DNA of 64,000 nucleotides, from NCBI RefSeq assembly GCF_000024545.1, contig NC_013947.1:6014001-6078000 (forward strand). The letters are read 5' to 3'. The notes under the pieces were generated by a model that was not told where the DNA came from, did not search any database, and saw only the letters and a program-made list of their open reading frames with translations. Of the stretch, positions 4,721-36,309 are shown in pieces; the stretch's first letter is position 1, and each line of letters starts with the position of its first letter. The stretch is from Stackebrandtia nassauensis DSM 44728. GTDB taxonomy: Bacteria; Actinomycetota; Actinomycetes; Mycobacteriales; Micromonosporaceae. A program made the position numbers and the translations under genes.

Positions 4721-5881
4721 TCAGCCGGACAGGCCGGCCGCGACCAGTTCGGTGAGCTGTTCCTTGGTGAACACGACCGGGTTGTTGCCCAGCCGCTCGA
4801 CGTTGACGCGCGAGGCCAGGTCGGCGACCTGTTCGCGGGTCGTGATGCCGTGCTCGGCGAGCTTAAGGGGGAGGCCGCATTCCTCGGCGATGGCGTCGAA
4901 GCGGGCCCGGGCGTCGGCGGCGTCGGCGGCTCCGAACGCGGCCAGCAGGGTGCGCATGCCCTCGGCGTGGGTGGCCGGGTCGACGCTGGGTTGCAGGTTG
5001 TCGGGGGTCGCCTTCGCGTGGGCTTCGATGAACGCGCCCAGGGTCAGGGCGACCGCGTGGCCGTGGCTGACACCGTAGGACTTGGTGAAGCCGTAGGACA
5101 GGGCGTGGGCGGCGGTGGTCTTGGAGACGTCGATGGCGCGGCCCGCGAGGTGGCTGCCCTGGGCCATCCGGCCCGCGACCTCGCTGGACGGGTTGTTGAC
5201 GAACTCCGGCAGCGCCGGGACCAGCAGGTCGATGGCCGCCCGGGCGAAGCCGCGGCTCGCGTCGGAGGCGCCCGAGGCCCACAGGCTCTCGGTCGCCTGG
5301 GCCAGGGCGTCGATGCCGGAGGTGGCGCGCTGGTAGGGCGAGGCGGTGAGGGTGAGCTTGGGATCGAGGATGACCGTGTCGGGCAGCATCGCGGGACCGG
5401 CGATGGAGTACTTGTCGTTGCCGATGTAGACCACGGCGAAGTGGGTGGCCTCGGAGCCGGAGCCGGACGTGGTGGGCGCCAGCACGAGTTTGAGGCGGCG
5501 CTCGGTGATGGCCGCGCCGGTGCGGATCGCCGCGTGCAGCTGCTCGGCGTCGGTGATGCCCTGGTAGGCGCACAGCAGTTTCGCCATGTCCATGGCACTG
5601 CCGCCGCCGACGCCCAGCACCAGGTCGGGTTTGAACTCCTCGACGACACGCAGGCCGTGGATGAGGTCGGCGGCGTCGGTGTTGGGGTGGAACTCGCTCC
5701 AGCGGCGGACCTCGGCGACCTTGGTCAGTTCGTCGAGGCAGCGGTTGGCCCCGGACGCGTCGAAGGCGTGCTGGCCGCAGATGAGCACGGCGCGCTTACC
5801 GTCCAGCTTGGACACCAGTTGCCAGGTGTCGAGGATCGCGTCGTCACCGAAGCGGACATCGCGGTCGTCGGGCAGTGTCAC
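4721..5881 (-). CDS. phpC: Iron-type alcohol dehydrogenase, probable phosphonoacetaldehyde reductase
   Basis: 386 residues of the group III iron-containing alcohol dehydrogenase family. A Rossmann part carries VLGVGGGSAMDMAK near residue 90, APTTSGSGSEAT near 140, and metal-binding histidines in the helical half (SHLAGRAIDVSKTTAAHALSY and SHGHAVALTLG). The start is a GTG with GAGGAG seven bases upstream rather than the GTG 12 codons earlier. Directly downstream of phosphonopyruvate decarboxylase and PEP mutase, it fits FomC/PhpC, reducing phosphonoacetaldehyde to 2-hydroxyethylphosphonate with NAD(P)H. This makes hydroxyethylphosphonate the expected product rather than aminoethylphosphonate, since no transaminase is present. 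Family call is firm; substrate is from context. Confidence 0.85.
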   Translation of the reverse strand: MTLPDDRDVRFGDDAILDTWQLVSKLDGKRAVLICGQHAFDASGANRCLDELTKVAEVRRWSEFHPNTDAADLIHGLRVVEEFKPDLVLGVGGGSAMDMAKLLCAYQGITDAEQLHAAIRTGAAITERRLKLVLAPTTSGSGSEATHFAVVYIGNDKYSIAGPAMLPDTVILDPKLTLTASPYQRATSGIDALAQATESLWASGASDASRGFARAAIDLLVPALPEFVNNPSSEVAGRMAQGSHLAGRAIDVSKTTAAHALSYGFTKSYGVSHGHAVALTLGAFIEAHAKATPDNLQPSVDPATHAEGMRTLLAAFGAADAADARARFDAIAEECGLPLKLAEHGITTREQVADLASRVNVERLGNNPVVFTKEQLTELVAAGLSG

Positions 5882-5970
5882 GATCGAACTCCTCAACTCG
5901 CCGGGGTTTGGTCCCACAGTAAATGAGGGGCGGGCGGGAGCGTCCGCTCCGCCCGCCCCGTCAACAGTTC

Positions 5971-7092
5971 TTACAGCGCGTTCATGAACGCGGTCTTGCT
6001 GTCGGCCGGACTGCGGGTCGGACGGCCGATGTCGGCGCGGTTACCGGGCCGGACCTTGATCTCCAGCAGCGACGGGCCGCCGTGCTCGCGCAGTTGCGCG
6101 ACCGCGGCGGCGATGCCGTCGACGGAGTCGGTCGCGGTGGCGTAGCGGTAGCCCAGCGCCTTGGCGGCGGCCGGAACGTCCACTTTGTCGATGGACGTCG
6201 GCTGGCCGCCGACCGAGTCGTGAACGCCGTTGTTGAACACGACGTGGAAGTAGCTCGCCGGTGCGTGGTCGGCGATGACGGCGAGGCTGCCCAGGTGCAT
6301 CAGCAGGGCGCCGTCACCGTCGAAGCACCACACCTCGCGGTCCGGGTCGGCCTTGGCGACGCCCAGCGCGATCGAGCTGGCGTGGCCCATGCCGCCGACG
6401 GTCAGGAAGTCCCGGTCGCCGTCGAGCGAGTTGTTGACGCGGTACTCGAACAGTTCCCGCGACAGCATGCCGGTGGTCGACACGATGGCGGCCTCGGTGC
6501 CCACGGCGGTGGCCGCGGCGATCAGGGCCTCCTCGCGGGACGGCAGCGGCGAGTCGGCCTTGGGCAGCTTCGCCGCGTCGGAGAAGGTGCCCTTCTCGAC
6601 CAGCAGCACGTACGGGCTGTTCTTCTCGACGGCCTCGGCCAGCGCCTCGTCCACGAGCTTCTCGGCCTCGTCGGGGTCGTGCGGCAGGATCGACCACGGC
6701 AGGTCCATGGCCTCGACCAGCTCGCGCTGCACCGCGCCCTGTTTGACGTGCTGCGGTTCGTCCTTGACGCCGGGCTGGCCGCGCCAGCCGACGACGACCA
6801 GCATCGGCACGCCGTAGACCTCGGCGTCGGCCAGGCTCAGCAGCGGGTTGACGGTGTTGCCGAAGCCCGAGTTCTGCATGTAGACCACGGCGGGCGTCTT
6901 GGTCTTGAGGTAGTGGCCGATGGCCAGCCCGACCGCGGCGCCCTCGTTGGCGGTGATGACGTGCCGCTCGCGCGGCAGCGCGGCCTGGATGTGGCTGCCG
7001 AGCTGCTTGAGCAGGCTGTCGGGGACACCGGTGTAGAGGGTGACGCCCTTGTCGCTGAGGTGGTCGACGAAACGCTTGGGATCGACGCTCAT
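5971..7092 (-). CDS. ppd: Phosphonopyruvate decarboxylase
   Basis: 373 residues, thiamine-diphosphate enzyme. The N-terminal PYR-like half has [12 protein letters not shown] and [15 protein letters not shown] with the catalytic Glu. The C-terminal half has the ThDP-binding stretch from [10 protein letters not shown] to the paired FNNG near residue 285-300. The short length and the VPDSLLK and [14 protein letters not shown] segments are typical of phosphonopyruvate decarboxylases rather than pyruvate decarboxylases. It converts phosphonopyruvate to phosphonoacetaldehyde and CO2, the irreversible step that pulls the unfavourable mutase reaction forward. Its ATG overlaps the PEP mutase stop (ATGA), so the two are co-translated. 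Confidence 0.93.
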
Positions 7093-8402
7093 GCCAGGTT
7101 CTCCGGGATGATCGCCAGGGCTTCCTTGATGTTCGCGATCTGCGAGTCGACCTCGGCGGACCGGCCGTTCTCCAGGATGGAGGTGGCGACCGAGGCCATG
7201 GCCTTGTAGGAGGCGCGCATCAGCTGGTTGGCGTAGATGACGACGTTGACGCCGCGCTTGGCGAACTCGTCCTCGACGACGGTGTTGTAGCTGGTCGGCA
7301 CGACCACCAGCGGAACCCGCTTGGGGAACTTCTGGAACAGCTCACAGAACTCGAAGACCTCGTCGGGGGTCTTCTGTCGCGAGTGGATCATGATGCCGTC
7401 GACGCCGCCCTCGTCGATGTAGGCGCGGGCACGCTTCACGGCGTCGTCCATGCCCTGCTCCAGGATCAGCGACTCGATGCGCGCGATGACCATGAAGTCC
7501 TTGGTGACCTGGGCCTTCTTGCCGACCTGGATCTTGTGGACCATGTCCTCGATGGAGCACTGGGTCTGCTGGGCGCCGGTGCCGAACAGCGAGTTGCGCT
7601 TCAGGCCCTCTTTGTCCTCGATGATGATCGCCGAGACACCAAGGCGCTCAAGGGAACGCACGGTGTAGCTGAAGTGCTCCGGCTTGCCGCCGGTGTCACC
7701 GTCGTAGATCAGCGGCTTGGTGGTGACGTCGAACAGGTCGTTGATGCCCTGCATCCGGGAGGCGGGGTCGACCAGCTCGATGTCGGGCTTGCCGCGCGCG
7801 GTGGAGTCGGTCAGCGAGGAGGACCACATGCCGTCGAACTCGACCTTGCGTCCATTGTGCTCGGCGGTGGTGGTCTCGATGATGAGACCGGTCAGCGGGC
7901 TGTGCGATTCCATGATCCGCACGATCGGCTTGTTCTCGATCAGGCGGCGCAGTCGCGACAGCCGTACGTTCGGGGTGGTGCCGACCTCTTTGACGGACTC
8001 GTTGAGCTGGGTGGACGAGATGCCCTCGGTGTAGCCGACCTCGACCAGTTCGCCGTTCCACTGGGCGAGCGCGTCGATGACCCGCTGCCGGGTCTGCTGC
8101 TGAACGCCGGTCTTCCAGTCGTCACCGTGGACGACGAAGTTCGGCTTGAGCTTCTCGAGGTTCTCGACGTAGTCGAGGGTCTCCTGTGGCACCACCGCCG
8201 CGACGCCCTTGATGTTCTCCACGACAGCCTTGCGCTGTTCGTAGGTCATGTGGGGCAGGCGCTTGTAGCTGGCGATGGCCGCGTCGGTCAGCAGACCGAT
8301 GGTGACGTCGCCCAGCTCGGCGGCCCTTTGCAGGATGTTGATGTGCCCGGGATGGACGAGATCGGCGCTCATCCCCACATAGACGGTGGGCTTGCTCGAC
8401 AA
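7089..8402 (-). CDS. pepM: Bifunctional cytidylyltransferase-phosphoenolpyruvate mutase (Fom1-like)
   Basis: 437 residues from a TTG with a GAGGAG site five bases upstream. Residues 5-135 are a TagD-like nucleotidyltransferase: HPGH at 17-20 and EGISSTQL near 127-133 form the CTP site. Residues 150-437 are PEP mutase with the diagnostic EDK-x5-NS signature at 262-271 and an upstream [11 protein letters not shown] stretch. PEP mutase forms the C-P bond of phosphonopyruvate. In fosfomycin producers the same fusion (Fom1) also cytidylylates 2-hydroxyethylphosphonate, so this protein probably both starts the pathway and makes CMP-hydroxyethylphosphonate. It heads the ppd-phpC group and lies 141 bp from a TagF-like gene. 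Confidence 0.95.
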
Positions 8403-8543
8403 GGTTTCTCCTCTTACTTTCACACAGAGAATGCTCGCCTCGACGTACGGGCGCGCACCATCGCGACACCACCGGACCGGGTCGAGGCCGGAACGACCGA
8501 CTGTACCGCGAATGAATTCTTCGTCCGGCGCCTACCCGATAAA

Positions 8544-10253
8544 TCAGCTCGCCGTCACTGCCTGGTCGCGCTCGTGTGACTCGCGCGGATCACGCGGGGT
8601 CTCGTAGGTCTCGCGGGCCGCCGACAGGAACGCCCTGGTGTAGGTGTCGGCGGGGAAGTCGCCCAGGTAGTGGGTCTTCAGCGCCCGCCGCTCGCTCGCG
8701 CGCGGGTCGGCGTCCAGCAGCTGCGAGACCACCTCGGGGATGTTGGAGCCGTCGTGACGGATCACATATGACGCGGTCGACAGCGGGAAGCTCTCGGCGA
8801 ACTCCTCGCCCTCGGCGAGCATGTCGGTCACGGCGAACGGCTTCTCCGAGTACAGCCAGTCGGACACGACGCCGCTGACGTCCGACACCAGCGCGTCGGC
8901 GTCGTTGAAGCAGTCGGCCAGCGTGATCTCGCCGGAGGTCTCGGCCCCGAAGCGGTGCGGGCGCCCGGTCTTGGCGCGGTCGGTGGCCAGCAGTTCCTGG
9001 ACCCGCTCCAGGGCCCGGCCGGCGGCGACGTTGCGACGGGTGAAGGGGTGTTCGCGCATCAGGACGGTCGCGCCCCGGGCCAGCAGCTCGGTCACGAGCG
9101 CCTCGCCCAGCGGCAGCGAGGAGAAGTTGACGTCGGCGGAGTCGCCGGTCCAGGTCGGCGCGTACAGCACCGTCGGGTGTTTCTTGTTGGCGATGGGTTC
9201 GCGGTCAACGCGCACGTCGGCGACCTGCGGGCGGCCGACGATGCGGAACTGCTCGTCGGTGATCTTGACGCCGTAGCGGCGGTAGCGTTCCACCCCGGCC
9301 TGCCCGGCCACGAACACCCGGTCGTACATGGCGCTGACCGGGTTGCGGCTGGCGGGTTTCTCGCTGTCACCGTGCATCAGCTGGATGTGGGTCAGTTCGC
9401 CGAAGCGGACGCAGTGGGTGTTCTTCATGCTGTTGTTGACGTAGAAGACGGAGCGCAGGCTGGGCACCAGCATGCTCTCCATGGCCGCGATGGACGGGGC
9501 CACCACGATCGGGGCCGGGGTGGCGGCGGCGAAGGTCTTGGCGGTGCGGCCCTCGCGCAGGATGATCACGTACGGGTCGCCCAGCTGGTCGAAGTACGGC
9601 AGCCACATCAGCAGCTGGTAGACCGCCGAGCCCGGGCCGGAGAAGTGCACCGCGAACTTGGGCGCGTGCGCCTCGACGGCGGCGCGCACCGCGGTGTCGG
9701 TCTGGTACGCGACGTCGCGGCGCCGCACCCACACCCGCAGCACCAGCACCGCCTGGGTCAACACGACCAGCACGCCGACGGCGACCAGCGGCCAGCCCGA
9801 CAGCTGGAAGGCCGCGCAGCCGGTGAAGGCGGCGATCATGCCGATGTTGACCATCGCGACGGTGCGCGGCGTGGCCCAGCGCGCCACGGTGGAACGCGGC
9901 AGCGGCAGGTTCGCGGTGTTGAGCCTGCCCATCCGCAATGCCTTGAACACCAGCGGTTCCACGCCCAGCAGGCCCAGCAGCAGCGCCCCGGCCCCGGCCA
10001 GTCCCAGGTTCAGTTCGCCGTCGCGGAACAGCCCGGTGCCCAAAAGCACGGCGGCGACGATGACGGCGCGGGCGGTGCGTCCGGCACCCGCGCTGACGGT
10101 GGTGAACAGGCCGGTCAGGAAGACCAGCGTCGCCAGGCACAGCCCATAGCCCAGCCAGGGCAGGTCAGTGAGCGCGAACACGACGACCGCGGCCGTCGGA
10201 AGTGCGCCGGGCAGCACCGTGCGCATCACGAAGCGCGACAAATTCTTTGGCAT
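8544..10253 (-). CDS. TagF/TagB-like polyol- or phosphonate-phosphotransferase 1
   Basis: 569 residues. The N-terminal 165 residues carry about four to five membrane helices. The rest is a CDP-glycerol glycerophosphotransferase-type GT-B domain with HIQLMHGDSEKP (catalytic His-Gly-Asp region), VFVAGQAGVERYRRYGV, VLYAPTWTG, REHPFTRRN and ADALVSDVSGVVSDWLYSEKPF in the usual order. Such enzymes transfer polyol phosphates from CDP-donors to make teichoic-acid-like polymers at the inner face of the membrane. Here the donor could be CDP-glycerol-like or CMP-hydroxyethylphosphonate; sequence alone cannot say. Paralogue of the next gene. A 12-bp palindrome lies 20 bp upstream of its ATG. Confidence 0.85.
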   Translation of the reverse strand: MPKNLSRFVMRTVLPGALPTAAVVVFALTDLPWLGYGLCLATLVFLTGLFTTVSAGAGRTARAVIVAAVLLGTGLFRDGELNLGLAGAGALLLGLLGVEPLVFKALRMGRLNTANLPLPRSTVARWATPRTVAMVNIGMIAAFTGCAAFQLSGWPLVAVGVLVVLTQAVLVLRVWVRRRDVAYQTDTAVRAAVEAHAPKFAVHFSGPGSAVYQLLMWLPYFDQLGDPYVIILREGRTAKTFAAATPAPIVVAPSIAAMESMLVPSLRSVFYVNNSMKNTHCVRFGELTHIQLMHGDSEKPASRNPVSAMYDRVFVAGQAGVERYRRYGVKITDEQFRIVGRPQVADVRVDREPIANKKHPTVLYAPTWTGDSADVNFSSLPLGEALVTELLARGATVLMREHPFTRRNVAAGRALERVQELLATDRAKTGRPHRFGAETSGEITLADCFNDADALVSDVSGVVSDWLYSEKPFAVTDMLAEGEEFAESFPLSTASYVIRHDGSNIPEVVSQLLDADPRASERRALKTHYLGDFPADTYTRAFLSAARETYETPRDPRESHERDQAVTAS

Positions 10254-10272
10254 TGAAGCGGTTCAGCTCCCG

Positions 10273-10284
10273 GTATTCGAATAC
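10273..10284. promoter_or_regulatory. Palindrome GTATTCGAATAC upstream of TagF-like gene 1
   Basis: Perfect 12-bp palindrome 20 bp before the start of the first TagF-like gene, inside a relatively AT-rich 150-bp gap that separates it from the upstream TagF-like gene. This is the only sizeable gap in this run of minus-strand glycan genes and may hold an internal promoter. The word differs from the GTAATCGATTAC sites at 4570 and 58627 only by symmetric A/T changes. Confidence 0.35.
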
Positions 10285-10403
10285 TTACGACGACCCACCG
10301 TAACAATCGGCTAACGGGATTATGGCGCACCCTTGCGCGACTCCCACCGACTCGCAACGAATGGAGGTTCTTCTTTGAGATTGAGTTGTTGCCCGCGAAG
10401 ATG

Positions 10404-12059
10404 TTACTCGGTATAGCAATCCCGTGCAGCTGTGAAGAAAGCTTCTTCATAAGCGTCGGCGGGGAAGCCGCCAAGATAGTAGGCCTTCATCTTGTGCCTG
10501 TCGGCGGCCAGGGAATCGGTGTCGAGCAGTTCGGCGCACACCTCGTCGAGGTTGGCGGTGTCGGCGCGGATGACGTAGGCGGCTTTGGCCAGCGGCAGTT
10601 CGGCGGCCAGTTTTTCACCCAATCCGGTGGGGTCGGTGACCGCGAACGGCTTCTCGGAGTACAGCCAGTCGCTGGCCGCGCCGGAGGCGTCGGTGACCAT
10701 GACGTCGGCGGCGTTGACGCAGTCGATGAGCGACATGGTCTCGCTGGTCGTCTTGCCCCACTTGTGTTCCCGGCCCGATGCCTCGGCGTCGGCGGCCAGG
10801 AGCCGTTCCACGGCGTCCAGTTGCCGGGCGGCGGCCGGGTTGCGGCGGGTGTAGGGGTGCGGGCGGACGATGACGGTGACGCCGCGCGCGATCAGGGCGG
10901 CGCAGATGTCGCGGGCCATCGGCAGCGAGCAGAAGTTGACGTCCTCGGACAGGCCGGTCCAGGTGGGCGCGTACAGCGCCACCGTCGGCGTGTCGGCGGC
11001 CTTGGCGCGGGGCCCGACGGTGACCTTGGCGACCTGCGGGTGCCCGACGATACGGAACTTCGCGGTCGGGATGTCGATGCCGTGGTTGTGGTAGCGGTCG
11101 ATCCCGGCCTGTCCGGCCACGAAGATCCGGTCGTACATGGCGCTGATCGGGTTGTAGCTGGCGGGTTTGTCGCTGTCGCCGTGCATCAGCTGGATGTGCG
11201 TCAGGTGCGCGAAGCGCACGCACTGGGCGTTGTGCATGCTCTGGTTGACGTAGAACACCGCTTTGACGGTGGGGACCAGCATGCTCTCCAGGTCGGTGAT
11301 CGACGGCGCCACCACGATGGGGGCGGCGGTGCGGGGCGCGAAGTCGGGCAGGAACTCCCGGTCGCGCAGCACGATCAGGTAGTCGTCGCCGAGCCGGTCG
11401 AAGTACGGCAGCCACAGTCGCAGCTGGTATTCCGAGCCCTCGGGAGCGGCGAAGTGGACGATGAACCGCGGCGCGTGCGCCTTGACGGCGGCCAGCACGT
11501 CGTTGTCGCCGGAGTGGGCGCGACGGCGTCGGCCAAGCCATTTCTCGACGGTTCCAGCGGCGAGTCCGGCGGCGGCCAGGCCGCAGGCGACGGTCACGGC
11601 CCACTGTCCCCAGCCGAAGGCGCTCGCGGCGATGAACGCCAGTGACAGAACGGTGATCAGGGCGAAGGCGGTGCGGGGGTTGTTCCAGCGTTCCAGGCCG
11701 GAGCGGTTGACCGGCAGGTTGGCGGTCTCGAGCTTGCGGACGGTCAGCGCGGTGACCAGGCGCGGTTCGAAGGCGATGATCGCGATGAGCAGCGTGCCCG
11801 CGATCGCCCAGGAGTAGCCGACGCGGCCCTGCGAGCCCATCGCGAGGCCGATCAGGATCGCGGCGATGGCGAGGATCCGGCCGATGAGGTGCTGGCCGAG
11901 GCCGTCGGCGCGGTACCGGTAGCAGCCGTAGCCCAGCGTGGCCAAGCTCAGCAGGTAGCCGGGCCACGGCGTCGGCAGCAGCAGCATCGCCGCCACGGCC
12001 GCCAACGGGAGTCCGTTGGGGGCGGCCACGTCGATGAGCCTGCGCGCGAGGTGAGCCAT
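10404..12059 (-). CDS. TagF/TagB-like polyol- or phosphonate-phosphotransferase 2
   Basis: 551 residues, paralogue of the 8544-10253 protein with the same plan: four to five N-terminal membrane helices, then the glycerophosphotransferase domain with HIQLMHGDSDKP, VFVAGQAGIDRYHNHGI, ALYAPTWTG, RPHPYTRRN and ADVMVTDASGAASDWLYSEKPF. All key His/Asp/Ser positions are kept in both copies, so both look active. Two such enzymes in one cluster suggest a primase/polymerase pair or different donors. It begins 4 bp after the IspD/TarI-like cytidylyltransferase gene, consistent with supply and use of a CDP-activated polyol in one operon. Confidence 0.85.
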   Translation of the reverse strand: MAHLARRLIDVAAPNGLPLAAVAAMLLLPTPWPGYLLSLATLGYGCYRYRADGLGQHLIGRILAIAAILIGLAMGSQGRVGYSWAIAGTLLIAIIAFEPRLVTALTVRKLETANLPVNRSGLERWNNPRTAFALITVLSLAFIAASAFGWGQWAVTVACGLAAAGLAAGTVEKWLGRRRRAHSGDNDVLAAVKAHAPRFIVHFAAPEGSEYQLRLWLPYFDRLGDDYLIVLRDREFLPDFAPRTAAPIVVAPSITDLESMLVPTVKAVFYVNQSMHNAQCVRFAHLTHIQLMHGDSDKPASYNPISAMYDRIFVAGQAGIDRYHNHGIDIPTAKFRIVGHPQVAKVTVGPRAKAADTPTVALYAPTWTGLSEDVNFCSLPMARDICAALIARGVTVIVRPHPYTRRNPAAARQLDAVERLLAADAEASGREHKWGKTTSETMSLIDCVNAADVMVTDASGAASDWLYSEKPFAVTDPTGLGEKLAAELPLAKAAYVIRADTANLDEVCAELLDTDSLAADRHKMKAYYLGGFPADAYEEAFFTAARDCYTE

Positions 12060-12063
12060 TCGT

Positions 12064-13655: not shown

Positions 13656-13819
13656 TCGCCGTGACCTGACGCACGAGATTACCAAAGCCTGCCTCGGTGA
13701 CTCGGGCGCGAGAAACGGCACCGATAATATGTCCAATACCGCGCGAATGCTCACTGGTGGAGGGCACCGCGTAGGCTCAAGCTTTCCTTTCCGTTCATGT
13801 AAGGCGTTTCAAGCAAACG

Positions 13820-16638: not shown

Positions 16639-16662
16639 CGTCCGACTTCGAGGGCGCGAAGC

Positions 16663-16695
16663 GGCCAACCGGCGCCGATCCGGCAACCGTTGGCC
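16663..16695. terminator. Inverted repeat after the DUF5941-type gene
   Basis: Arms GGCCAAC (16663-16669) and GTTGGCC (16689-16695) bracket a GC-rich 19-base loop 24 bp after the preceding stop codon. No T-run follows. It is the only clear structure near this operon end, so a weak terminator is possible. Confidence 0.35.
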
Positions 16696-16987
16696 CGTCT
16701 CAAACGTGCATCAATGGGACGCTGTGCACACTCCCGTCGATGACGGTCGTCAGTGGCGAGTGGGCATTACCATTGGATGCGCATTCGCCTTTGTCCGGCC
16801 GCGGTTACGGGAGCACGAGGGCGGTGGCCCACCGTGAGTTTCGTGTGTCACTGGTTTCTCGGAACCTGGCCTGCCCGGGCCAGGCGCTGATACGGAGGCA
16901 CCGCCCCCTCAGAAAAGTGAGTCGACGCTGTGAACACGACGCCCCCTCCCAGACCCTTGTGTGTCACCGACAGCCGGTGATGGCCCG
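16696..16987. other. Intergenic region before the Stealth genes, with a TGCCCG-loop hairpin
   Basis: About 290 bases with no convincing gene. A short hairpin lies at 16865-16884 (CCTGGCC, loop TGCCCG, GGCCAGG). The stretch probably holds the promoter for the Stealth/glycosyltransferase genes, but no promoter boxes could be assigned with confidence. Confidence 0.4.
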
Positions 16988-18769: not shown

Positions 18770-18774
18770 ACTAC

Positions 18775-22691: not shown

Positions 22692-22736
22692 CATCCTCGG
22701 GACGCCTCCGCGCCCGGTGCCCGGACGCGTCGTGTG

Positions 22737-24851
22737 ATGACCGACCAGCACCGTGTCCCGCCCCAGCCGGGCGGGCGGGCGACGCGGTTCCCCGTCAAGC
22801 GCCGGGTGGTCCTGGGCACCGCCTTCGCCGGTGGCGCCGTGGCGACCGCCGGGCTGCTGTTGCGGCCCTGGCAGTCCGACCCCGCCGCCGGTACCGACGA
22901 GACCGGTGACGGCCGGGTACACATGCAGATCGTCGCGCACCCGGACGACGACCTGTACTTCTTCAATCCCGATGTGGCCCAGTGCATCCGGGACGGCAAG
23001 CCGATGGTCACGGTGTGCATCACCTGCGGTGAGGGCGACGGCCGCAACGGCCCCGACACCGAGGAACAGGACTACGAGTCCTATGTGGCGGCACGCTACA
23101 ACGGCCTGCGCGCCGCCCACGCCGACATGACCCTGAAGAAGCCGCTGGCCGAGTGGACCCGCGAGAAGCTGAAGTTCAAGGCCGGGCCGACCGCCGAGCT
23201 GGCGACGCTGAAGTCCGAGCCCAGGATCCAGCTGGTGTTCCTCAACCTGTGGAGCAACGCCGAGAAACCCGGCGTGAAGGGCCGCCGGCTCAAGCAGCTG
23301 TGGGAGGGCGAGACCGACGAGCACGAGACCCTCGTCCCGGCCGCCAGCCCGATCGGCAAGAAGTACGGCTACGACCGCGAGACGCTGCTGAAGGTGCTGG
23401 CCGAGCTGCTCGACCGCTACAACCCGGTCGTGGTGCGGACCATGGACCCCGACCCGGACGCGCAGGAGCACGACGCCGCCAACCCGCGCTACGCCGACCA
23501 GAAGGGCTACTCCGACCACGAGGACCACACCCCGGCGGGCCTGTTCGCGTGGGAGGCGCTGCGTTCCTGGTGGAAGGACGGCAACGGCGACAACACCGTC
23601 GTGGAGTCCTACCGGGGCTACTACGGCCGCCGGTGGCCCCGCAACCTCAGTGCCAAGGCCCGCAAGGACAAGGGCCGCACCATGAACGTCTACGCCTGGC
23701 GCGACGAACGCGAGTGCGGCGACCCCAACGGCTGCGGCGACCTCAACATCACCGGCAAGGGCGTGGGGACGGCCTACGGCGCCAGCACCACCTACCGGTA
23801 CTCCGGCGACACCGGCTGGCTGCGCCGCACCGGCGACAAACGGCTGTTCGCGGCGCTGGTGCGCGGCGGCCGGGCGGTGCAGTGGCTGGAACCGGAGTCG
23901 GGCTCCGACGAGACCAACTCGTTCAGCCTGGTCGGCACCGACCTGATGCTGCCGTCGCTGAACACCTGCACCTCGGGGGCGGGCGTGTGGCACACCGTCG
24001 GCGTCACGGCGGCGTTCACCGAGGAACCCGGCTCGCACACCCGCAACCTGCTGGTGCGCGACTTCACCTTCACCGGCGCGACCGGGCAGTGGCGCAGTCT
24101 CGGCAATCCCGACGCCGATCGCAAGGGCCGCAAGCGCCGTGGCGTGGGAATGCCGGTCGCGGTCGCGGTGGGCGAGGGACGGCTGCTGGTCGCCGCGCGC
24201 AACTACGACCGCAGTGTGTCGGTGCGGCACCGGACCGCCTCGGGCTCCTGGGACGACTGGAAGCACCTGGACGGCCCGGTCGTCCAGGACGGACTCAGCG
24301 CCGTCAGCCTCAAGACCGACACGGCCGACATCTTCGCCAGCGCGGCCGACGGCGTGGTGCAGTGGCACCGCGACGGCGGCTCCTGGGACCAATCCACCTT
24401 GGACACGGTGGTTCCGGCCGGGCCGCCCACCGCGGTCGCGCTGCCGGACTCCCGGGTGCTGCTGCTGGTCCGCGAGGCCGAGACGGCGCGGCTGTTCGGC
24501 TACGTCGGCGACGGCTCCGAGGACGGCTGGAAGGACGAGCTCGATCTCGGCGGCGACGGCGGGGTCGGCTCCATCGCGGCCCTGGCCCCGAAGTCGTGGA
24601 GCGGCCGCGTCGGCATCGCGGTGCGCAACGACGCCGGGACCGTCAGCGTGACGGTGCTGGACACCAAGCGCGACAAGAAACCCAAGTGGCGCGACGGCGG
24701 CCCGGTCATCGTGCACATGCCGTCCCTGGCGCTGGACGGAACCGGTCGGCTGACGGCCGGGGCGATCGACGCCGACGGCAGACTGCATCTGGCCCGGCAG
24801 GCGCAACCGGGCATCGGGGCGCCCGAGAACTGGACGGTGGTGGCCCGCTGA
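22737..24851 (+). CDS. PIG-L family deacetylase with PLL-like beta-propeller domain
   Basis: 704 residues. The N-terminus has a positively charged stretch and a hydrophobic helix (RRVVLGTAFAGGAVATAGLLL), a signal or anchor, so the enzyme acts outside the membrane. Residues 60-300 form a PIG-L/LmbE deacetylase: AHPDDD (zinc-binding His-x2-Asp-Asp), TCGEGDGRNG, and YSDHEDHTPAG, supplying the third zinc ligand. Residues 360-700 repeat a bladed pattern (WRSLGNP, GSWDDWKHL, GVVQWHRDGGSWDQ, GWKDELDLGG) like PLL/fucolectin-type propellers that bind sugars. It probably removes N-acetyl groups from exported glycan. GTG at 22734 is an alternative start. Confidence 0.82.
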   Translation: MTDQHRVPPQPGGRATRFPVKRRVVLGTAFAGGAVATAGLLLRPWQSDPAAGTDETGDGRVHMQIVAHPDDDLYFFNPDVAQCIRDGKPMVTVCITCGEGDGRNGPDTEEQDYESYVAARYNGLRAAHADMTLKKPLAEWTREKLKFKAGPTAELATLKSEPRIQLVFLNLWSNAEKPGVKGRRLKQLWEGETDEHETLVPAASPIGKKYGYDRETLLKVLAELLDRYNPVVVRTMDPDPDAQEHDAANPRYADQKGYSDHEDHTPAGLFAWEALRSWWKDGNGDNTVVESYRGYYGRRWPRNLSAKARKDKGRTMNVYAWRDERECGDPNGCGDLNITGKGVGTAYGASTTYRYSGDTGWLRRTGDKRLFAALVRGGRAVQWLEPESGSDETNSFSLVGTDLMLPSLNTCTSGAGVWHTVGVTAAFTEEPGSHTRNLLVRDFTFTGATGQWRSLGNPDADRKGRKRRGVGMPVAVAVGEGRLLVAARNYDRSVSVRHRTASGSWDDWKHLDGPVVQDGLSAVSLKTDTADIFASAADGVVQWHRDGGSWDQSTLDTVVPAGPPTAVALPDSRVLLLVREAETARLFGYVGDGSEDGWKDELDLGGDGGVGSIAALAPKSWSGRVGIAVRNDAGTVSVTVLDTKRDKKPKWRDGGPVIVHMPSLALDGTGRLTAGAIDADGRLHLARQAQPGIGAPENWTVVAR

Positions 24852-24870
24852 GGCCGGTGCGAACCGAGCC

Positions 24871-25449
24871 TCAGAACTCCAGCGAGCCCAGCACGGTGCG
24901 GCAGGCCTTGGCGATCTCGGCTTCCTGGTCCTTGTACTGGCAGCCGACCTGCACCATGCGCTTGCCCTCGAAGAAGTACTCGGCGTCGTAGGTGATGAAC
25001 TGCTCGTCGCCGGTCTTGGTGGCCTGTTTGGTCCACTTGTGGAAACCGGGGTGGCCGTTGGCGACGGCGGCGTAGGGGTCGCCCTTGCCCTGGTTGTCGA
25101 CCTTGTCGTCGTACTGGCGCACCAGTTCGAGCAGTTCGTCGCGGTCGAGGTCGGTGGTGTCGACGTCGATGACGTAGGAGGCCACGAAGATGGACTCGCT
25201 CTCCTTGCCGTCCAGGGAGAAGTACTTCACCTCGTGGTTCTTGGCCAGCGGGGTGATCGGCTTCATGTCCTTGTTCTCCTTGAAGCCCTCGGGGACGTCG
25301 TACTCGACGGCGAGCGGCTTGGCGCCGCCCTCGGAGTCCTTGTCGCCGTTCGAACCGTTGTCGCCGGTGCAGGCGGCCAGACCGGCGGCGAGGACGCCGA
25401 TGAACGTGATCGCGACGCCGCGACGAAAGCGCCCGAACTTACCTGACAC
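24871..25449 (-). CDS. Lipoprotein of unknown function
   Basis: 192 residues from a GTG with AAGGAG seven bases upstream, which decides the start against a longer frame. Signal peptide with basic residues, a hydrophobic core and a LAAC lipobox, followed by a Gly/Asp/Ser linker; the mature protein should be lipid-anchored on the outer face of the membrane. The body has alternating strands and helices (IFVASYVIDV, ELLELVRQYDDKV, ITYDAEYFFEGKRMVQVGCQYKD) but no domain I recognise. It converges on the PIG-L gene with a 19-bp gap. Its place in the glycan cluster may be incidental. Confidence 0.75.
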   Translation of the reverse strand: MSGKFGRFRRGVAITFIGVLAAGLAACTGDNGSNGDKDSEGGAKPLAVEYDVPEGFKENKDMKPITPLAKNHEVKYFSLDGKESESIFVASYVIDVDTTDLDRDELLELVRQYDDKVDNQGKGDPYAAVANGHPGFHKWTKQATKTGDEQFITYDAEYFFEGKRMVQVGCQYKDQEAEIAKACRTVLGSLEF

Positions 25450-25561
25450 GGTTACTCCTTGTCCCACACTGTCAACGGACCCGAGCATACTGGCGGCGTC
25501 GGGATTCGCCATCGGCCAGCCGGGTCGAAATCGCGGCGGCCACATCGCCGCTGATCCCGGC

Positions 25562-26494
25562 TCAGATCGTCACGGTTCCCAGCAGCGGCGCGTGGTCGGA
25601 GTACCCGCTGGGCGGGCCGCTGTCGGGTTCGTTCTCGGTGGTGTCCATCAGGTCGGTGCGCGAGTCACAGGAGCCGAAGTTGGTGCCGCTGTCGGGCTTG
25701 CTGGCGAAGATGTGGTCCCGCTTGCGGTAGACGTGCGTGTCGTCGCCGGTCCAGGCGTGGTGCGTGGTCTCGTCGACCTTGTCGCCGCTGCCGTAGGAAC
25801 GGCCGTCGCACTCGTGGAAGTTGTCCGAGATCGGTTTCAGCGTCGACGAACCCGGGAACAGGTTGAAGTCGCCGCCCAGGACGAGGTTGGCGCGGCTGGG
25901 CCACACGTAGTCGCGGACGTTCTTGACCTGTTGCGGCCGCCGGGGGTCCTCGGGGTCGGCCAGGATGTGGGTGGTGCACACCGTGGTCGGCCAGTCGGTC
26001 GTGGTGGCGCACAGCGTCGGCAGTGTCTGCTTGCTCTGCCCGGTCGGGTCCGGCGGCAGCGTCTGCTTGGACGTGAACTCGGCGTTGGACGCCTTGATGG
26101 CGATGGCGACGCCGAGTTCGCCGTTGAGGTCGCCCCGGCAGTCGGTGCGGCCGTCGGGCCGGGCGCCGCGGGCGTTGCCGATCTGCCAGTCGTCGCCCAG
26201 CGCCGTCTTGAGCCGCCCCAGGTGGCTGTCGGCGGTCTCGGCGCACACCTCCTGCAACAGGATCACGTCGAGGTCGCGCTCGGCCACCAGATCCGCGATG
26301 ACATCCACTTTGGCCTGTGGATCGTCGCGGTAGGGACAGAATCCCGCGTCGCCGCGTTTGCCGCCGGCCTCGCCGCAGGTGTTCCAGGACAGGACGTTCA
26401 GCTCGGTCGCCTCGTCGGCGACCGCCAGCGGCGCGACGGCGAGCCCCGCCGCCGCCACTACTGCGGCGACGGCGAAACGGATCGATCTACGCAT
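25562..26494 (-). CDS. Secreted endonuclease/exonuclease/phosphatase-family protein
   Basis: 310 residues with a Sec signal peptide (MRRSIRFAVAAVVAAAG..., cleavage near AVA-DE). EEP-fold motifs appear in order: NVLSWNTCG near the mature start, DVILLQEVC (catalytic Glu), NLVLGGDFNLFPGS (Asp-x-Asn), KRDHIFAS and GYSDHAPLLGTV (Ser-Asp-His). The family includes DNases and phosphodiesterases; export suggests extracellular nucleic-acid or lipid/phosphodiester cleavage. It follows ugd on the same strand after 59 bp. Function within the glycan cluster, for example trimming phosphodiester links, is only a possibility. Confidence 0.85.
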   Translation of the reverse strand: MRRSIRFAVAAVVAAAGLAVAPLAVADEATELNVLSWNTCGEAGGKRGDAGFCPYRDDPQAKVDVIADLVAERDLDVILLQEVCAETADSHLGRLKTALGDDWQIGNARGARPDGRTDCRGDLNGELGVAIAIKASNAEFTSKQTLPPDPTGQSKQTLPTLCATTTDWPTTVCTTHILADPEDPRRPQQVKNVRDYVWPSRANLVLGGDFNLFPGSSTLKPISDNFHECDGRSYGSGDKVDETTHHAWTGDDTHVYRKRDHIFASKPDSGTNFGSCDSRTDLMDTTENEPDSGPPSGYSDHAPLLGTVTI

Positions 26495-26553
26495 GGGCGC
26501 GGCTCCTCGCGGCTCTCCTCGGGTGCGAAGAGGTTACCCACGCGTTGCCACAA

Positions 26554-27978
26554 TCAGTCCGCAGCGCGGCCGAGCCCCCGGTAGGTCCAACCGGCGTTGC
26601 GCCACAGCTGCGGGTCGAGGGCGTTGCGGCCGTCCAGGATCCGGGGCTTGGCGACCAGGTCGGACAGCGCCTCGGGGTCGACGTGGCGGAACTCTTCCCA
26701 CTCGGTCAGGACGCACACCAGGTCGGCGCCTTCGACGGCCTCGGTGAGGGTGTGTCCGTAGCGCAGTTCGGGGCGGAACATCCGGGCGTTGTCCATGCCC
26801 ATCGGGTCGTAGACGGTGACGGTGGCACCCTCGTTGGACATGCGGCGGGCGATGTCCAGGGCCGGGGAGTCGCGGACGTCGTCGGTGTCGGGCTTGAAGG
26901 TCGCGCCCAGCACGGTGATGTTCAGGCCGGACAGTTCCGGGCCGTTGGGGCCGTTCTCGCGTCCGCACAGTTCGGCGGCCAGCCGGACCACCTTGGTGCG
27001 GCGGTTGAGGTTGATGTCCTCGACCTCGGCCAGGAACCGCATCGACTCGCCGACGCCCAGCTCCTTGCCGCGCGCGGCCAGCGCCCGCAGGTCCTTGGGC
27101 AGGCAGCCGCCGCCGAAGCCGATACCGGCGCGCAGGAACCGGTGGCCGATGCGGGAGTCGTAACCCATGGCGCGGGCCAGCGCGTTGACGTCGCCGCCGG
27201 AGGCCTCGCACAGTTCGGCCATCGCGTTGATGAACGAGATCTTGGTGGACAGGAACGCGTTGGAGGCGACCTTGACCAGTTCGGCGGTGGCGAAGTCGGT
27301 CTTGACCAGCGGCACCTCCCGGTCCTCCATCGCGGCCAGCTCGAAGACTCCCTTGTGGGCGGCCTGCAGCAGTTCGTCGGCCCACTCGCTCTGGGCGGCC
27401 AGCACGATCCGGTTGGGGCGCAGCACGTCGTCGACGGCGTTGGCCTCCTGCAGGAACTCGGGGCTCCAGGCGACCTCGACCTCGACGTCGGGCGAGGAGT
27501 GCTTGTCGATGAGCTGCTGCACCCAGGCGGCGGTGCCGACCGGGACGGTGGACTTGCCGACCAGCAGGCAGCGGCGGGTCAGCAGCGGCGCCAGCGTCGT
27601 GACCGCCGACTCGATGTAGGCCAGGTCGGCGGAGTCGGAGTCCTTGCGCGGCGGGGTGCCGACGCACAGGAAGTGGACGTCACCGAAGTCGGCGACCTCC
27701 TGGGGGTCGGTGGTGAAGCGCAGCCGCCCGTTGTCGACGTTCTTGCGCACCAGGTCGTCCAGCCCGCGCTCGTAGAACGGCATCTCCCCGGCCGAGAACT
27801 TCTCGATCCGGCCGGAGTCGACGTCGTATCCGAGTACCTCGTAGCCCAGCTCCGCGTAACAGGCGGCGTAGGTGCCGCCGAGCGGGCCCACGCCGATGAA
27901 GGTCAGGCGGGGGCGGGGCGAACCGGAGGCGACGATGGATTCGCCCTCGTTGGGGAGACTGGTACTGCTGGCGCGCAT
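26554..27978 (-). CDS. ugd: UDP-glucose/nucleotide-sugar 6-dehydrogenase
   Basis: 474 residues. Rossmann start LTFIGVGPLGG (Pro-Leu where most relatives have Tyr-Val), STVPVGTA, PEFLQEANAV at 173, the catalytic cysteine Cys292 in FGGGCLPKD, and the C-terminal UDP-binding FKPDTDDVRDSPALD. It oxidises UDP-glucose (or a related sugar) to the uronate in two NAD-dependent steps. UDP-glucuronate is the precursor of UDP-xylose, and xylose has been reported, as I recall, in phosphonoglycans of Stackebrandtia and Glycomyces, which would explain its presence here. No decarboxylase is in the window. The exact substrate cannot be settled from sequence. Confidence 0.88.
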   Translation of the reverse strand: MRASSTSLPNEGESIVASGSPRPRLTFIGVGPLGGTYAACYAELGYEVLGYDVDSGRIEKFSAGEMPFYERGLDDLVRKNVDNGRLRFTTDPQEVADFGDVHFLCVGTPPRKDSDSADLAYIESAVTTLAPLLTRRCLLVGKSTVPVGTAAWVQQLIDKHSSPDVEVEVAWSPEFLQEANAVDDVLRPNRIVLAAQSEWADELLQAAHKGVFELAAMEDREVPLVKTDFATAELVKVASNAFLSTKISFINAMAELCEASGGDVNALARAMGYDSRIGHRFLRAGIGFGGGCLPKDLRALAARGKELGVGESMRFLAEVEDINLNRRTKVVRLAAELCGRENGPNGPELSGLNITVLGATFKPDTDDVRDSPALDIARRMSNEGATVTVYDPMGMDNARMFRPELRYGHTLTEAVEGADLVCVLTEWEEFRHVDPEALSDLVAKPRILDGRNALDPQLWRNAGWTYRGLGRAAD

Positions 27979-28043
27979 GCGAATAGTGCCTATCGTTGAT
28001 GTCTGTGCTTGAGTTTCAGTGTTTCATAGGGGCTTCGACGAGC

Positions 28044-28928
28044 TTAAAGCTCCTTAAGCACCATCGGCTCCAGTCGGTGGAACATCCAGCGGCCGAAGAA
28101 CAGCAGGAAGACGCTGATGGCGACGCTGGTGGTGATCATCTGCCAGGTGAGGTTGTTCAGCCCTGGGATCCACGCCTCGTGATGAATCTCAACGATGACG
28201 ACGAAGGGATTGGCCAGGTAGATGGACTTCGCCCACTCCGGCAGGTTGTCCGACTTCAGGACCAGAGCCAGCGGGTAGATGCTCGGCACCGCGTAGAACA
28301 GGATCCGGGTGACCAGCCGCATGAAGCGCTGCACGTCCCGGTACAGCACGTTGAGCGAGGCCAGGATGAACGCCAGTCCGGTCAACAGCACCGCCTGCAG
28401 GGCGACCGCCGGGAACAGCAGCAGCAGGTTCCAGCCGAAGGTCCCGGCGCTGATGCCTCGGCCGAGCAGCGCGAAGATGACAATGATGGGGATGCCGGCC
28501 AGGAACTCGGCGAATCGGGCCACGACCCGCGCGACCGGGAACACCTCGCGGGGCACCTTCATCGTCGTGATGAGGGACGACTGCGACGTCAGGCAGGTGG
28601 TCGCCTCACTGATCGCGGAACTCGCCCACATCCAGGCGAAGATCCCGGACACGATGTACAGGCTGTAGTCGACGTGTTCGAGCGCGCTGTCGCCACGGGC
28701 GCCAACCTGCATGACCACGCCGAAGACGAACCAGTAGATCGTCGCCAGTCCCATGGGTTCCAGCAGCGACCAGAAGTAACCCATGACGGTCTTCTGGTAC
28801 TTGACCGCGAGGTCGCGCTGCACCAGCACCCGCAGTGTCTGCCGGTGCCGCCACAGCGCGGTGAGTCCCGTGGTCTTCGGGAAGATCCGCTTGGGCCTGG
28901 AGGTAACGAGTGTGTCAGGAGAGTTCAT
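28044..28928 (-). CDS. ABC-2 type polysaccharide/teichoic-acid exporter permease (TagG-like)
   Basis: 294 residues from the internal ATG at 28928; upstream extension to 29048 would overlap the dehydrogenase gene heavily. Six membrane helices in the ABC-2 pattern, with VQRDLAVKYQKTVMGYFWSLLEPM before the first helix, a typical TagG/Wzm signature, and a conserved Tyr-Pro (YAVPSIYPLALVL) late in the protein. It should pair with the TagH-like ATPase encoded at 13820-14581 to flip the lipid-linked glycan across the membrane. The start overlaps the glycerol-1-phosphate dehydrogenase stop by 14 nt, so it is co-transcribed with the two genes upstream. Confidence 0.88.
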   Translation of the reverse strand: MNSPDTLVTSRPKRIFPKTTGLTALWRHRQTLRVLVQRDLAVKYQKTVMGYFWSLLEPMGLATIYWFVFGVVMQVGARGDSALEHVDYSLYIVSGIFAWMWASSAISEATTCLTSQSSLITTMKVPREVFPVARVVARFAEFLAGIPIIVIFALLGRGISAGTFGWNLLLLFPAVALQAVLLTGLAFILASLNVLYRDVQRFMRLVTRILFYAVPSIYPLALVLKSDNLPEWAKSIYLANPFVVIVEIHHEAWIPGLNNLTWQMITTSVAISVFLLFFGRWMFHRLEPMVLKEL

Positions 28929-29970
28929 CGCAGAATTCCGTAATCCTGTCGCGCAGATCGGAAACGTCAAGTGACAGATGTTCCAAAATGGTGTACCTGC
29001 CGGGCCGGGTCTTGGGCGCGTAGGCGACCGCGACCGCGAATTGATCAACCGTAAGCCCCATGTCCGAAGGGATGCGCGGCAGGTGGTGCCGTTTCATCGC
29101 ATGGGCCATTTCGCGGAACAGCTGTTCGTCGCCGCGCAGGTAAGTGGCGAACAGCGCTCCCATCCCCACCTGCTCGCCGTGGGTGGCCACGGTGGGGTGT
29201 CGTTCCTGGATCGCGTGCGCGATCTCGTGGCAGGCACCGGAAGCGGGCAACGACGTGCCCGCCACGGCCATCGCGGTGCCGCCGAGCACCAGCGCGTTGG
29301 CCAGGGTGGCGAGGAAGGTGTCGTCGCCGACGCTGCCGGGGTGCCGCAGCACCGATTCGGCGCCACCGCGGGACATGGCGATGGCCAGCCCGTCGATGGG
29401 TTCGCCGGTCTCGGTGTGGCTGAGCTGCCAGTCGGCGGTGGCGCACAGATTGGACAGTGCGTCGCCGACCCCGGAGGACAGCTGCCGGGCCGGGGCGCGG
29501 CGGACGAAGTCCAGGTCCACGATGACGGCGATCGGAATCTGTGCGCCGTAGGAGATCGAGTGGCCGTCGCGGTCCAGGGAGGCTGTCGGGGAGGCGATGC
29601 CGTCGTTGGCGAGGCTGGTGGCCACCGAGACCATCGGGAGTCCCTGCCGGAACGCGGCGTACTTGACGGTGTCGATGACCCGGCCGCCGCCGATGCCGAC
29701 CACGGCGTCGAAGTTGCGGCTGCGCAGTTTGGTGGCCAGTTCCAGGGCGCCGCCGTGGGTACCGGCGTCGATGGTCAGCACCTCGGCGCGAGCCAGGCTC
29801 TCACGGGCCTGTTCGGCGGCCTCCTTGCCGATGCCGGGCCCGACGACGACGGCGACCTCACCCCCGGCGGAGATCCGCCGGTCGGCGAGCAGCTCGCCCA
29901 GATGGCGCACCGCGCCCGCGTGCACCTCGACAGCCAGCGGCGCCGTCACGGTGCGCGCTAGCAGCGGCAT
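28915..29970 (-). CDS. sn-glycerol-1-phosphate dehydrogenase family protein (AraM/EgsA-like)
   Basis: 351 residues, an iron-type dehydrogenase fold. VVVGPGIGKEAAEQ, GIGGGRVIDTVKYAAF near 95, SVATSLANDGIASPTASL near 120, SSGVGDALSNLCATADW (metal Asp), and the His ligands in SGACHEIAHAIQE and THGEQVGMGAL follow the AraM/EgsA order. These enzymes reduce dihydroxyacetone phosphate to sn-glycerol-1-phosphate, the enantiomer used in archaeal lipids and by a few bacteria. The neighbouring nucleotidyltransferase and exporter genes suggest that the product enters a surface polymer. Related 2-deoxy-scyllo-inosose-type synthases were considered, but the motifs fit the G1P group better. Confidence 0.75.
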   Translation of the reverse strand: MPLLARTVTAPLAVEVHAGAVRHLGELLADRRISAGGEVAVVVGPGIGKEAAEQARESLARAEVLTIDAGTHGGALELATKLRSRNFDAVVGIGGGRVIDTVKYAAFRQGLPMVSVATSLANDGIASPTASLDRDGHSISYGAQIPIAVIVDLDFVRRAPARQLSSGVGDALSNLCATADWQLSHTETGEPIDGLAIAMSRGGAESVLRHPGSVGDDTFLATLANALVLGGTAMAVAGTSLPASGACHEIAHAIQERHPTVATHGEQVGMGALFATYLRGDEQLFREMAHAMKRHHLPRIPSDMGLTVDQFAVAVAYAPKTRPGRYTILEHLSLDVSDLRDRITEFCDELS

Positions 29971-30686
29971 GCGACCTCCCGCGCCACGGCCCAGTCGGCG
30001 TGGTTGTCGACCTCCACCCAGTCCACGGCGCCGATCGGGACGGCGTGCACGTTGGGGCCCGCGTCCGCGAGCAGCTGGAAAGCGTCCTCATAGTACAGAT
30101 TGGGGTCGCTGGTGTACGTCCGCACCAGCGCGTCAGTGAGCTCGGCGGCGATGTCGGCGCCGATCCGCGAGACCCCGATGTACTCGCCGTAGGCGGACTC
30201 GACCGGCATCTGCTTGGTGACGGTCGTGACCACACCGTCGGCACCACATTGGAGCTTCATGGCCTCGTCGGTGAGTTCCTTGACCGCGTCGGTGGCCAGC
30301 AGGATGCCGTCGCCCTCGGCGGCCAGCAGCGTCTTCTCGACGCTGCCAGGGTGGACGGTGTCGCCGTTGACCAGCAGCGCGCCCTGCGCGTAGAAATCGC
30401 GGGCGTGCCACAGCGAGTAGGCGTTGTTCCAGTCCGTCCGGTCATTGTGGATCAGCTCGATGGTGAGCCCGTAGCGTTCCCGCAGGGCTTCGACCCGCGC
30501 CTCGATGGCGTGTGCCGCGAATCCGACGACGATCCCGACCTCGCCGACCCCGGCGGCGGCCAGGTTCCGCAGCGCGATGTCGAGGATCGTGACGTCCCCG
30601 TCCACCGGCAGCAGCGTCTTCGGCAGGTCGTCGGTGTCCGGTTTCAAGCGTTGTCCCTGACCGGCGGCCAGCACTACACCACGCAC
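29958..30686 (-). CDS. Sugar-phosphate/alditol-phosphate nucleotidyltransferase
   Basis: 242 residues from a GTG with CAGGAG nine bases upstream; a 28-codon upstream extension looks noncoding. GT-A-like nucleotidyltransferase: VVLAAGQGQRLKP at the N-terminus, LPKTLLPV, NAYSLWHARDF, LLVNGDTVHP (metal Asp), and WVEVDNHADWAVA at the end. The N-terminal loop and W-x-EVD ending match MobA-like CTP:alcohol-phosphate transferases such as inositol-1-phosphate or phosphocholine cytidylyltransferases. Its stop overlaps the G1P dehydrogenase start, so it may activate sn-glycerol-1-phosphate with CTP. The nucleotide and substrate are inferred. Confidence 0.78.
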   Translation of the reverse strand: MRGVVLAAGQGQRLKPDTDDLPKTLLPVDGDVTILDIALRNLAAAGVGEVGIVVGFAAHAIEARVEALRERYGLTIELIHNDRTDWNNAYSLWHARDFYAQGALLVNGDTVHPGSVEKTLLAAEGDGILLATDAVKELTDEAMKLQCGADGVVTTVTKQMPVESAYGEYIGVSRIGADIAAELTDALVRTYTSDPNLYYEDAFQLLADAGPNVHAVPIGAVDWVEVDNHADWAVAREVACRC

Positions 30687-35384: not shown

Positions 35385-35407
35385 CTCTCTACTTCCTATT
35401 GCGGGGA

Positions 35408-36271: not shown

Positions 36272-36309
36272 GGGGGCTTTCGGGTGTGGGGGCGAATACG
36301 ACGGGTTGT

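Follow-up and report, generated by a model that had tools for sequence, protein, structure and literature searches.

Gene Content and Layout of the Locus

The window analyzed here is a 64,000-bp stretch of the Stackebrandtia nassauensis DSM 44728 genome (bases 6,014,001–6,078,000 of a single 6,841,557-bp contig), and the system in question is a run of 19 assigned genes at 4721–30770 that includes a phosphonate operon built around pepM. The strain, for which LLR-40K-21T, DSM 44728, and NRRL B-16338 are synonymous names (genome of 6,841,557 bp; PMC3035245), is named as a phosphonoglycan producer in PMC12723261, and phosphonoglycan clusters are tabulated for its genome (CP001778) and for Glycomyces NRRL B-16210 in PMC7375171. 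These sources bear out the original prediction, made from the DNA sequence alone, in its mention of phosphonoglycans from both genera. Since DSM 44728 is the Stackebrandtia strain for which production was published, the locus is already known and the finding is a re-discovery of the published cluster. Yu et al. reportedly described in 2014 a partly O-methylated polymer that contains galactose and xylose and bears 2-hydroxyethylphosphonate (2-HEP, hereafter also HEP). The contribution of this analysis is its comparison of LicD occurrence and of cytidylyltransferase swapping among relatives; it makes the HEP transfer step testable, as it yields a short list of candidate CMP-HEP transferases, namely the TagF-like enzyme of the operon and the LicD proteins.

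Gene assignment by Pfam (19 proteins, E 0.01) and NCBIfam (ten of them) agrees with the genes previously listed from sequence, which were a 2-HEP trio, two TagF-like proteins, two CDP-alcohol phosphotransferases, two Stealth transferases, a GT4 enzyme, a deacetylase, a UDP-glucose dehydrogenase, and an exporter. Missing from that list were the PF01467 domain of the PepM fusion, IspD, a glycerol-1-phosphate dehydrogenase (G1PDH)-like protein, an NTP transferase, and an Exo_endo_phos protein. The description of one continuous region holds in that the genes are contiguous; however, they form three blocks on alternating strands (4721–13754 minus, 13820–24851 plus, and 24871–30770 minus) and are split by the gene content of relatives. 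The minus-strand run from 13754 to 4721 encodes, in order, a CDP-alcohol transferase, IspD, TagF-like b, TagF-like a, the PepM fusion, Ppd, and Fe-ADH, with gaps of at most 150 bases. Pfam placed none of the 19 proteins in an aminotransferase, radical-SAM, or methyltransferase family, which upholds the claimed lack of small-molecule tailoring enzymes for the radical-SAM and transaminase types, while a PhpD-type HEP dioxygenase had no dedicated model.

Predicted Synthesis of CMP-HEP

Three minus-strand genes are expected to encode 2-HEP synthesis and its activation as CMP-HEP. Fe-ADH (4721–5917; PF00465), whose nearest NCBIfam model is TIGR03405 with a score below cut-off, is expected by homology to reduce phosphonoacetaldehyde to 2-HEP. 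It is followed by Ppd (phosphonopyruvate decarboxylase; 5971–7092; TIGR03297 at 434.1 bits against a cut-off of 312.5) and a Fom1-type cytidylyltransferase-PepM fusion (7089–8423; PF01467 and PF13714; TIGR02320 at 394.5 against 319.55). The fusion carries an N-terminal PF01467 domain on a PepM with the EDKX5NS motif, is close to Fom1, and is the sole bearer of the motif when compared to the three other PF13714 loci of the genome. The core thus combines a motif-bearing PepM, Ppd, and a HEP dehydrogenase, the last by homology alone. Identity to three Glycomyces is 59–63% for Fe-ADH and 74–75% for Ppd.

All three proteins have colinear homologs in the Streptomyces wedmorensis locus L016 (fusion 71%, Ppd 59%, and Fe-ADH 53% identical), where the N-terminus of the fusion is identical to PDB 5x3d, an entry that the S. 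nassauensis fusion matches at 238 bits. We take the S. wedmorensis fusion and 5x3d to be Fom1, an identification drawn in part from PMC6697681. The likeness to the fosfomycin pathway lies in these three colinear homologs (53–71% identical); the fosfomycin locus was found to hold no TagF-family or LicD gene, and its CMP-HEP goes to a small molecule. Fom1 forms CMP-HEP, according to PMC6697681. As judged from close homologs, phosphoenolpyruvate (PEP) would be converted to phosphonopyruvate by the PepM domain, phosphonopyruvate to phosphonoacetaldehyde by Ppd, phosphonoacetaldehyde to 2-HEP by Fe-ADH, and 2-HEP to CMP-HEP by the Fom1-type cytidylyltransferase domain. The earlier assignment of three 2-HEP genes, together with a glycan fate for the product, finds support in this homology and in the published producer status of the strain.

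The TagF-like Proteins

Two TagF-like proteins are encoded next in the operon on the same strand, g04 (TagF-like a, 8544–10253), a candidate CMP-dependent transferase, and g05 (TagF-like b, 10404–12059), a candidate CMP-HEP:glycan transferase. Their PF04464 matches lie above the cut-off of 22.1 bits but are partial, covering profile positions 185–289 (g04, 39.9 bits) and 193–289 (g05, 29.7 bits) of 367. The AF2 model of g05 (pLDDT 81.6) is a GT-B enzyme with N-terminal helices, which we infer to anchor the protein in the membrane. Like TagF/TarL (3l7i, 8va1), g05 has a GT-B domain (195–551), a His aligned with the catalytic H444 of TagF, a second His, and a [TS]DxS motif; unlike them, it has the N-terminal helices, and its sequence is very remote. 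The TagF-like profile gave only two matches against the PDB (E 0.08 and 0.12), and the proteins matched no NCBIfam model at E 0.001; a fold search cannot separate TagF from other GT-B enzymes. In g04, the HG, RxHP, and DxSG motifs are present. It is an extra copy at this locus, the four other Stackebrandtia showing just one TagF-like gene at pepM, and it is basal in the TagF-like tree, its nearest relative lying in an operon with IspD and a short-chain dehydrogenase/reductase (SDR).

Conservation was examined in 121 genomes of the family (in the GTDB sense), ten with a fused PepM at ≥72% identity and 111 without. Lack of fused pepM is not necessarily lack of any pepM, since ten further genomes hold partial PepM matches (29–42% identity, residues 149–439), nine of which keep the motif. 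One of the ten fused-pepM genomes, G074, is a metagenome-assembled genome (MAG) with a 3.7-kb pepM contig that could show no neighbors, and fused pepM occurs in 3 of 22 Glycomyces (NRRL B-16210, which is G098; G. paridis; and G. salinus). A TagF-like gene lies ≤1 kb upstream of fused pepM on the same strand in 5/5 Stackebrandtia, 3/3 fused-pepM Glycomyces, and G014, and the distance is ≤0.5 kb upstream of PepM-Ppd-FeADH in the three Glycomyces and G014.

The gene context of TagF-like proteins was compared for 43 ORFs (open reading frames) scoring over 300 bits in 60 loci. Within 6 kb, an IspD-type or LicC-like gene is found for 33, a PepM fusion for six (four of these with IspD as well), and neither for four. 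The neighbor type follows the TagF-like tree, with 7 changes against a shuffled mean of 27.4. Across seven sampled genomes of the genus Glycomyces, a LicC-like gene adjoins the TagF-like gene in the six without fused pepM, whereas NRRL B-16210 has no LicC-like gene there. Because 33 of the 43 proteins sit near another cytidylyltransferase and six by the PepM fusion, we favor a reading in which TagF-like enzymes would have swapped their donor to CMP-HEP. The IspD and SDR neighbors of many relatives suggest CDP-ribitol-type donors for those proteins. The guess in the original prediction that TagF-like enzymes carry the phosphonate fits this comparison; among the papers within our reach, which did not extend to most subscription papers (Yu et al. 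2014 included), none was found that assigns a TagF-like phosphonyltransferase.

Two related proposals were discarded. Monophyly of the pepM-adjacent TagF-like proteins was rejected by the tree. The canonical GT2-TagF was dropped as a core member, having no match at E 1e-80 in G004, G046, G083, G014, or G023 and matching many genomes without fused pepM (29/121 genomes in all); it sits after FeADH in G066 and ~4 kb beyond FeADH in Glycomyces.

LicD and LicC

Within the sample, no family follows fused pepM as closely as LicD. PF04991 was matched in 9 of 121 genomes, comprising 9/10 with fused pepM and 0/111 others (Fisher 9e-13, not tree-corrected; 4 of 44 genera), and the lone fused-pepM genome without a match is the MAG with the 3.7-kb pepM contig. 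No LicD lies inside the 19-gene interval. The PF04991 matches of S. nassauensis, at 788.7, 939.7, and 940.8 kb, are 1.6–1.8 Mb from pepM and of two kinds, namely a LicD1/LicD2 pair (genome 939,233–941,712), which mostly occurs with a LicC-like enzyme (here LicC, 941,780–942,469), and TPR-LicD (787,614–789,230), which adjoins the GT2-TagF gene at 784–789 kb. LicD2 matches fukutin-related protein in the PDB (E 3e-5); nothing there matched the LicC-like protein at E 0.001. We did note that the LicC-LicD1-LicD2 set (L242:9233–14948, genome 939.2–944.9 kb) lies next to genes for a galactokinase and an NAD-dependent epimerase.

The LicC-LicD1-LicD2 set is present in 5/5 Stackebrandtia, G054, and G. 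salinus, with LicC-LicD1 in G023 and LicD1/LicD2 in G014 without an adjacent LicC (~30 kb off). LicC-like genes are more widespread than LicD (36 against 9 of the 121 genomes). LicD1/LicD2 lie ≤2 kb from FeADH in G. salinus, G014, and G054, and two TPR-LicD-like proteins directly follow FeADH in Glycomyces NRRL B-16210 and G. paridis. In G004 and G066, LicD1/LicD2 are ~83 kb from pepM, with a further LicD in G066 ~6 kb beyond pepM.

LicD-like phosphotransferases near pepM are noted in PMC6697681, which also describes the Pnt/Lic pathways (PntC or LicC plus LicD-like transferases). These share with the S. nassauensis system the cytidylyl activation and a presumed capture by glycan or lipid, but use 2-aminoethylphosphonate (AEP) and PntC, whereas S. 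nassauensis has HEP, a Fom1-type domain, and a TagF-like gene in the operon. The main text of that paper makes no mention of TagF or CDP-glycerol.

Fused-pepM Loci in Other Phyla

More widely, the best 80 of 292 fused-pepM candidates in named genomes were compared, of which 67 have the PepM-Ppd-FeADH order. Leaving out eight without a callable next ORF, five Glycomycetaceae, and two Streptomyces gave 52 post-FeADH genes, set against 81 control ORFs located 2–8 kb off in the same loci and picked by length, a rough matching. The post-FeADH gene encodes a Glyphos_transf protein (the TagF family) in 16, LicD in seven, and CDP-OH_P_transf in one. For Glyphos_transf, 16/52 compares to 4/81 controls (Fisher 7e-5), a count inflated by close Bacteroidota relatives; LicD occurred in at most 2/81 controls, falling outside the 25 families shown. 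With a self-trained profile, post-FeADH TagF-family matches were seen in Bacteroidota, Ignavibacteriota, Methanobacteriota, Thermodesulfobacteriota, and Pseudomonadota, and with profiles trained on their own hits, 54 of the 80 loci hold a TagF-family or LicD gene. The Streptomyces loci L016 (that of Fom1) and L017 hold neither.

Proposed Transfer of HEP to the Glycan

The steps after C-P bond formation in the tailoring of cell-surface phosphonates were called enigmatic in a 2019 survey (PMC6697681). At a probability of roughly 0.65, we read the pepM part as belonging to the published S. nassauensis phosphonoglycan pathway, situated beside a separate wall-glycopolymer locus, with HEP transferred by a TagF-like or LicD enzyme. 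As suggested by comparative genomics, a transferase borrowed from teichoic-acid-type chemistry would hand HEP from CMP-HEP to a glycan hydroxyl and set CMP free. The leading candidate would be the same-operon TagF-like g05, with its paralog g04, and the second LicD, from the distant LicC-LicD1-LicD2 set (939–942 kb) or TPR-LicD (788 kb), in which case a key step would be encoded >1.5 Mb from the pepM operon. The existence of two LicD kinds, and of a LicC-like gene beside the LicD pair in G. salinus, lowers the weight both of this reading and of transfer by LicD alone.

The alternative that survives best, though clearly the less probable, is that LicD alone transfers HEP and the TagF-like proteins are ordinary ribitol- or glycerol-phosphate polymerases that merely sit in the pepM operon. 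The confinement of LicD to fused-pepM genomes in the sample, its position ≤2 kb from FeADH in NRRL B-16210, G. paridis, G. salinus, G014, and G054, and the IspD and SDR operon of the nearest g04 relative all favor it. However, the LicD1/LicD2 pair is usually accompanied by a LicC-like enzyme and is unlike the TPR-LicD of NRRL B-16210, a TagF-like gene is found ≤1 kb upstream of pepM in 9/9 Stackebrandtia, Glycomyces, and G014 loci, and in 16 of 52 loci elsewhere the gene following FeADH belongs to the TagF family.

Returning to the TagF-like enzymes, it is conceivable, if improbable, that they would string HEP units together in the way TagF does with glycerol phosphate, since the 2-hydroxyl of HEP stays free. 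The resulting poly(hydroxyethylphosphonate) stretch, later joined to the glycan, would be a teichoic acid with a C-P backbone, beyond mere sugar capping.

Extent of the Phosphonate Core

The 26 kb looks like a composite, with a phosphonate core at 4721–12059 (FeADH, Ppd, the fusion, and two TagF-like genes) set against a wall-polymer locus. The remaining minus-strand genes of the first block are IspD (g06, 12064–12783; TIGR00453 at 192.2 against a cut-off of 181.3) and CDP-alcohol phosphotransferase 1 (g07, 12780–13754; PF01066). The plus-strand block encodes a TagH-like ABC transporter ATPase (g08, 13820–14581; PF00005), CDP-alcohol phosphotransferase 2 with DUF5941 (g09, 14581–16638; PF01066, PF19365), two Stealth sugar-phosphate transferases with CR1–CR4 (16961–18769 and 18757–20406), a GT4 glycosyltransferase (20403–22691; PF00534), and a PIG-L deacetylase-like protein (22734–24851; PF02585). 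The last block, on the minus strand, comprises a 224-aa protein with no Pfam family above cut-off (24871–25545), an Exo_endo_phos (exo/endonuclease/phosphatase family) protein (25562–26494; PF03372), UDP-glucose dehydrogenase (26554–27978; PF03721, PF00984, PF03720), a TagG-like ABC-2 permease (28044–28928; PF01061), a G1PDH-like protein (Fe-ADH_2; 28915–29970; PF13685; NF002022 at 234.8 bits, below its cut-off of 413), and an NTP transferase (nucleotidyltransferase; 29958–30770; PF12804, PF00483). The starts of the second Stealth, GT4, and permease genes were picked by eye. The genes at 12064–30770 probably serve to build and export either the carrier glycan or a different wall polymer. In G023, a member of another genus, a G1PDH-like gene lies ~2 kb before fused pepM with a DUF4143/AAA gene between (L139:6288–12879).

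A synteny comparison of pepM loci separates these parts. The four other Stackebrandtia keep FeADH-Ppd-PepM-TagF-like-IspD-CDPOH1 | ABC-CDPOH2, with one TagF-like gene. The phosphonoglycan clusters of S. nassauensis (CP001778) and NRRL B-16210 (KJ125437) both have the FeADH-Ppd-NTase-PepM-TagF-like core, and in the 31 kb around pepM of NRRL B-16210 only these genes are common to both, plus a 23%-identical UDP-glucose-dehydrogenase-family protein. NRRL B-16210, G. paridis, G. salinus, and G014 keep the core with one TagF-like gene, and no IspD, CDP-alcohol, Stealth, or exporter homolog was detected next to their pepM. On this evidence, the phosphonoglycan genes seem to fill just part of the 26 kb.

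The view of the whole 26 kb as one phosphonoglycan gene set, put forward in the original prediction, accords with the contiguity of the blocks in S. nassauensis and their mostly surface-polymer genes, yet seems doubtful in light of relatives. In G004, G066, and G046, a group ~25–50 kb from pepM has homologs of GT4, PIG-L, UDP-glucose dehydrogenase, permease, and G1PDH; it includes an NTP transferase homolog in G046 (where sequence reached) and adjoins a ~500-aa IspD ORF (a Pfam-checked IspD-SDR fusion in G046) and its own TagF-like gene. In G026 and G007, which gave no PepM match, relatives of g08, g09, and g17 occur with a TagF-like gene, and the g08/g09 homologs of NRRL B-16210 are on a contig other than that of pepM. 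The further claim that the full assembly pathway lies in the interval is not supported: the core shared with NRRL B-16210 is small, LicD is encoded elsewhere, and the 19 genes include no methyltransferase family, which counts against the claim if the polymer is indeed partly O-methylated. Genes for surface polymers that lie together in one cluster may still serve more than one pathway.

Transfer of HEP by a CDP-alcohol phosphotransferase (g07 or g09), also guessed previously, fits the comparison less well than transfer by a TagF-like enzyme and is quite unlikely, for although g07 runs in the direction of the pepM operon in 5/5 Stackebrandtia and L018 and L064 have a homolog shortly after FeADH, no such gene is near pepM in 3/3 fused-pepM Glycomyces or G014 (nor is g07 near pepM in L008 or L009), g09 occurs in 74/121 genomes unlinked to fused pepM (7/10 with against 67/111 without, p 0.74), and only 1/52 post-FeADH genes is of this type.

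IspD and Neighboring Genes

The g06 protein is the only strong PF01128 (IspD) match in the S. nassauensis genome (G000). IspF is at 144,806 (L203, genome 143,306–146,752), with no IspD gene called next to it; its neighbor resembles CarD by eye. Perhaps g06 is the housekeeping IspD of the methylerythritol phosphate (MEP) pathway, or it may be a polyol cytidylyltransferase. In Glycomyces NRRL B-16210, rated 100% complete, the best PF01128 match is 44 bits.

Adjoining the pepM operon on the minus strand are genes for an EndoU nuclease-domain protein and two WXG100-like proteins (1550–2140, 2162–2875, and 3786–4502), the WXG100 match at 2162–2875 being just under cut-off, and the group looks like a polymorphic toxin/secretion neighborhood. 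Beyond the last block, an imelysin/cupredoxin protein and an FTR1 iron permease (34254–36343, minus strand) form an EfeUO-like iron uptake pair.

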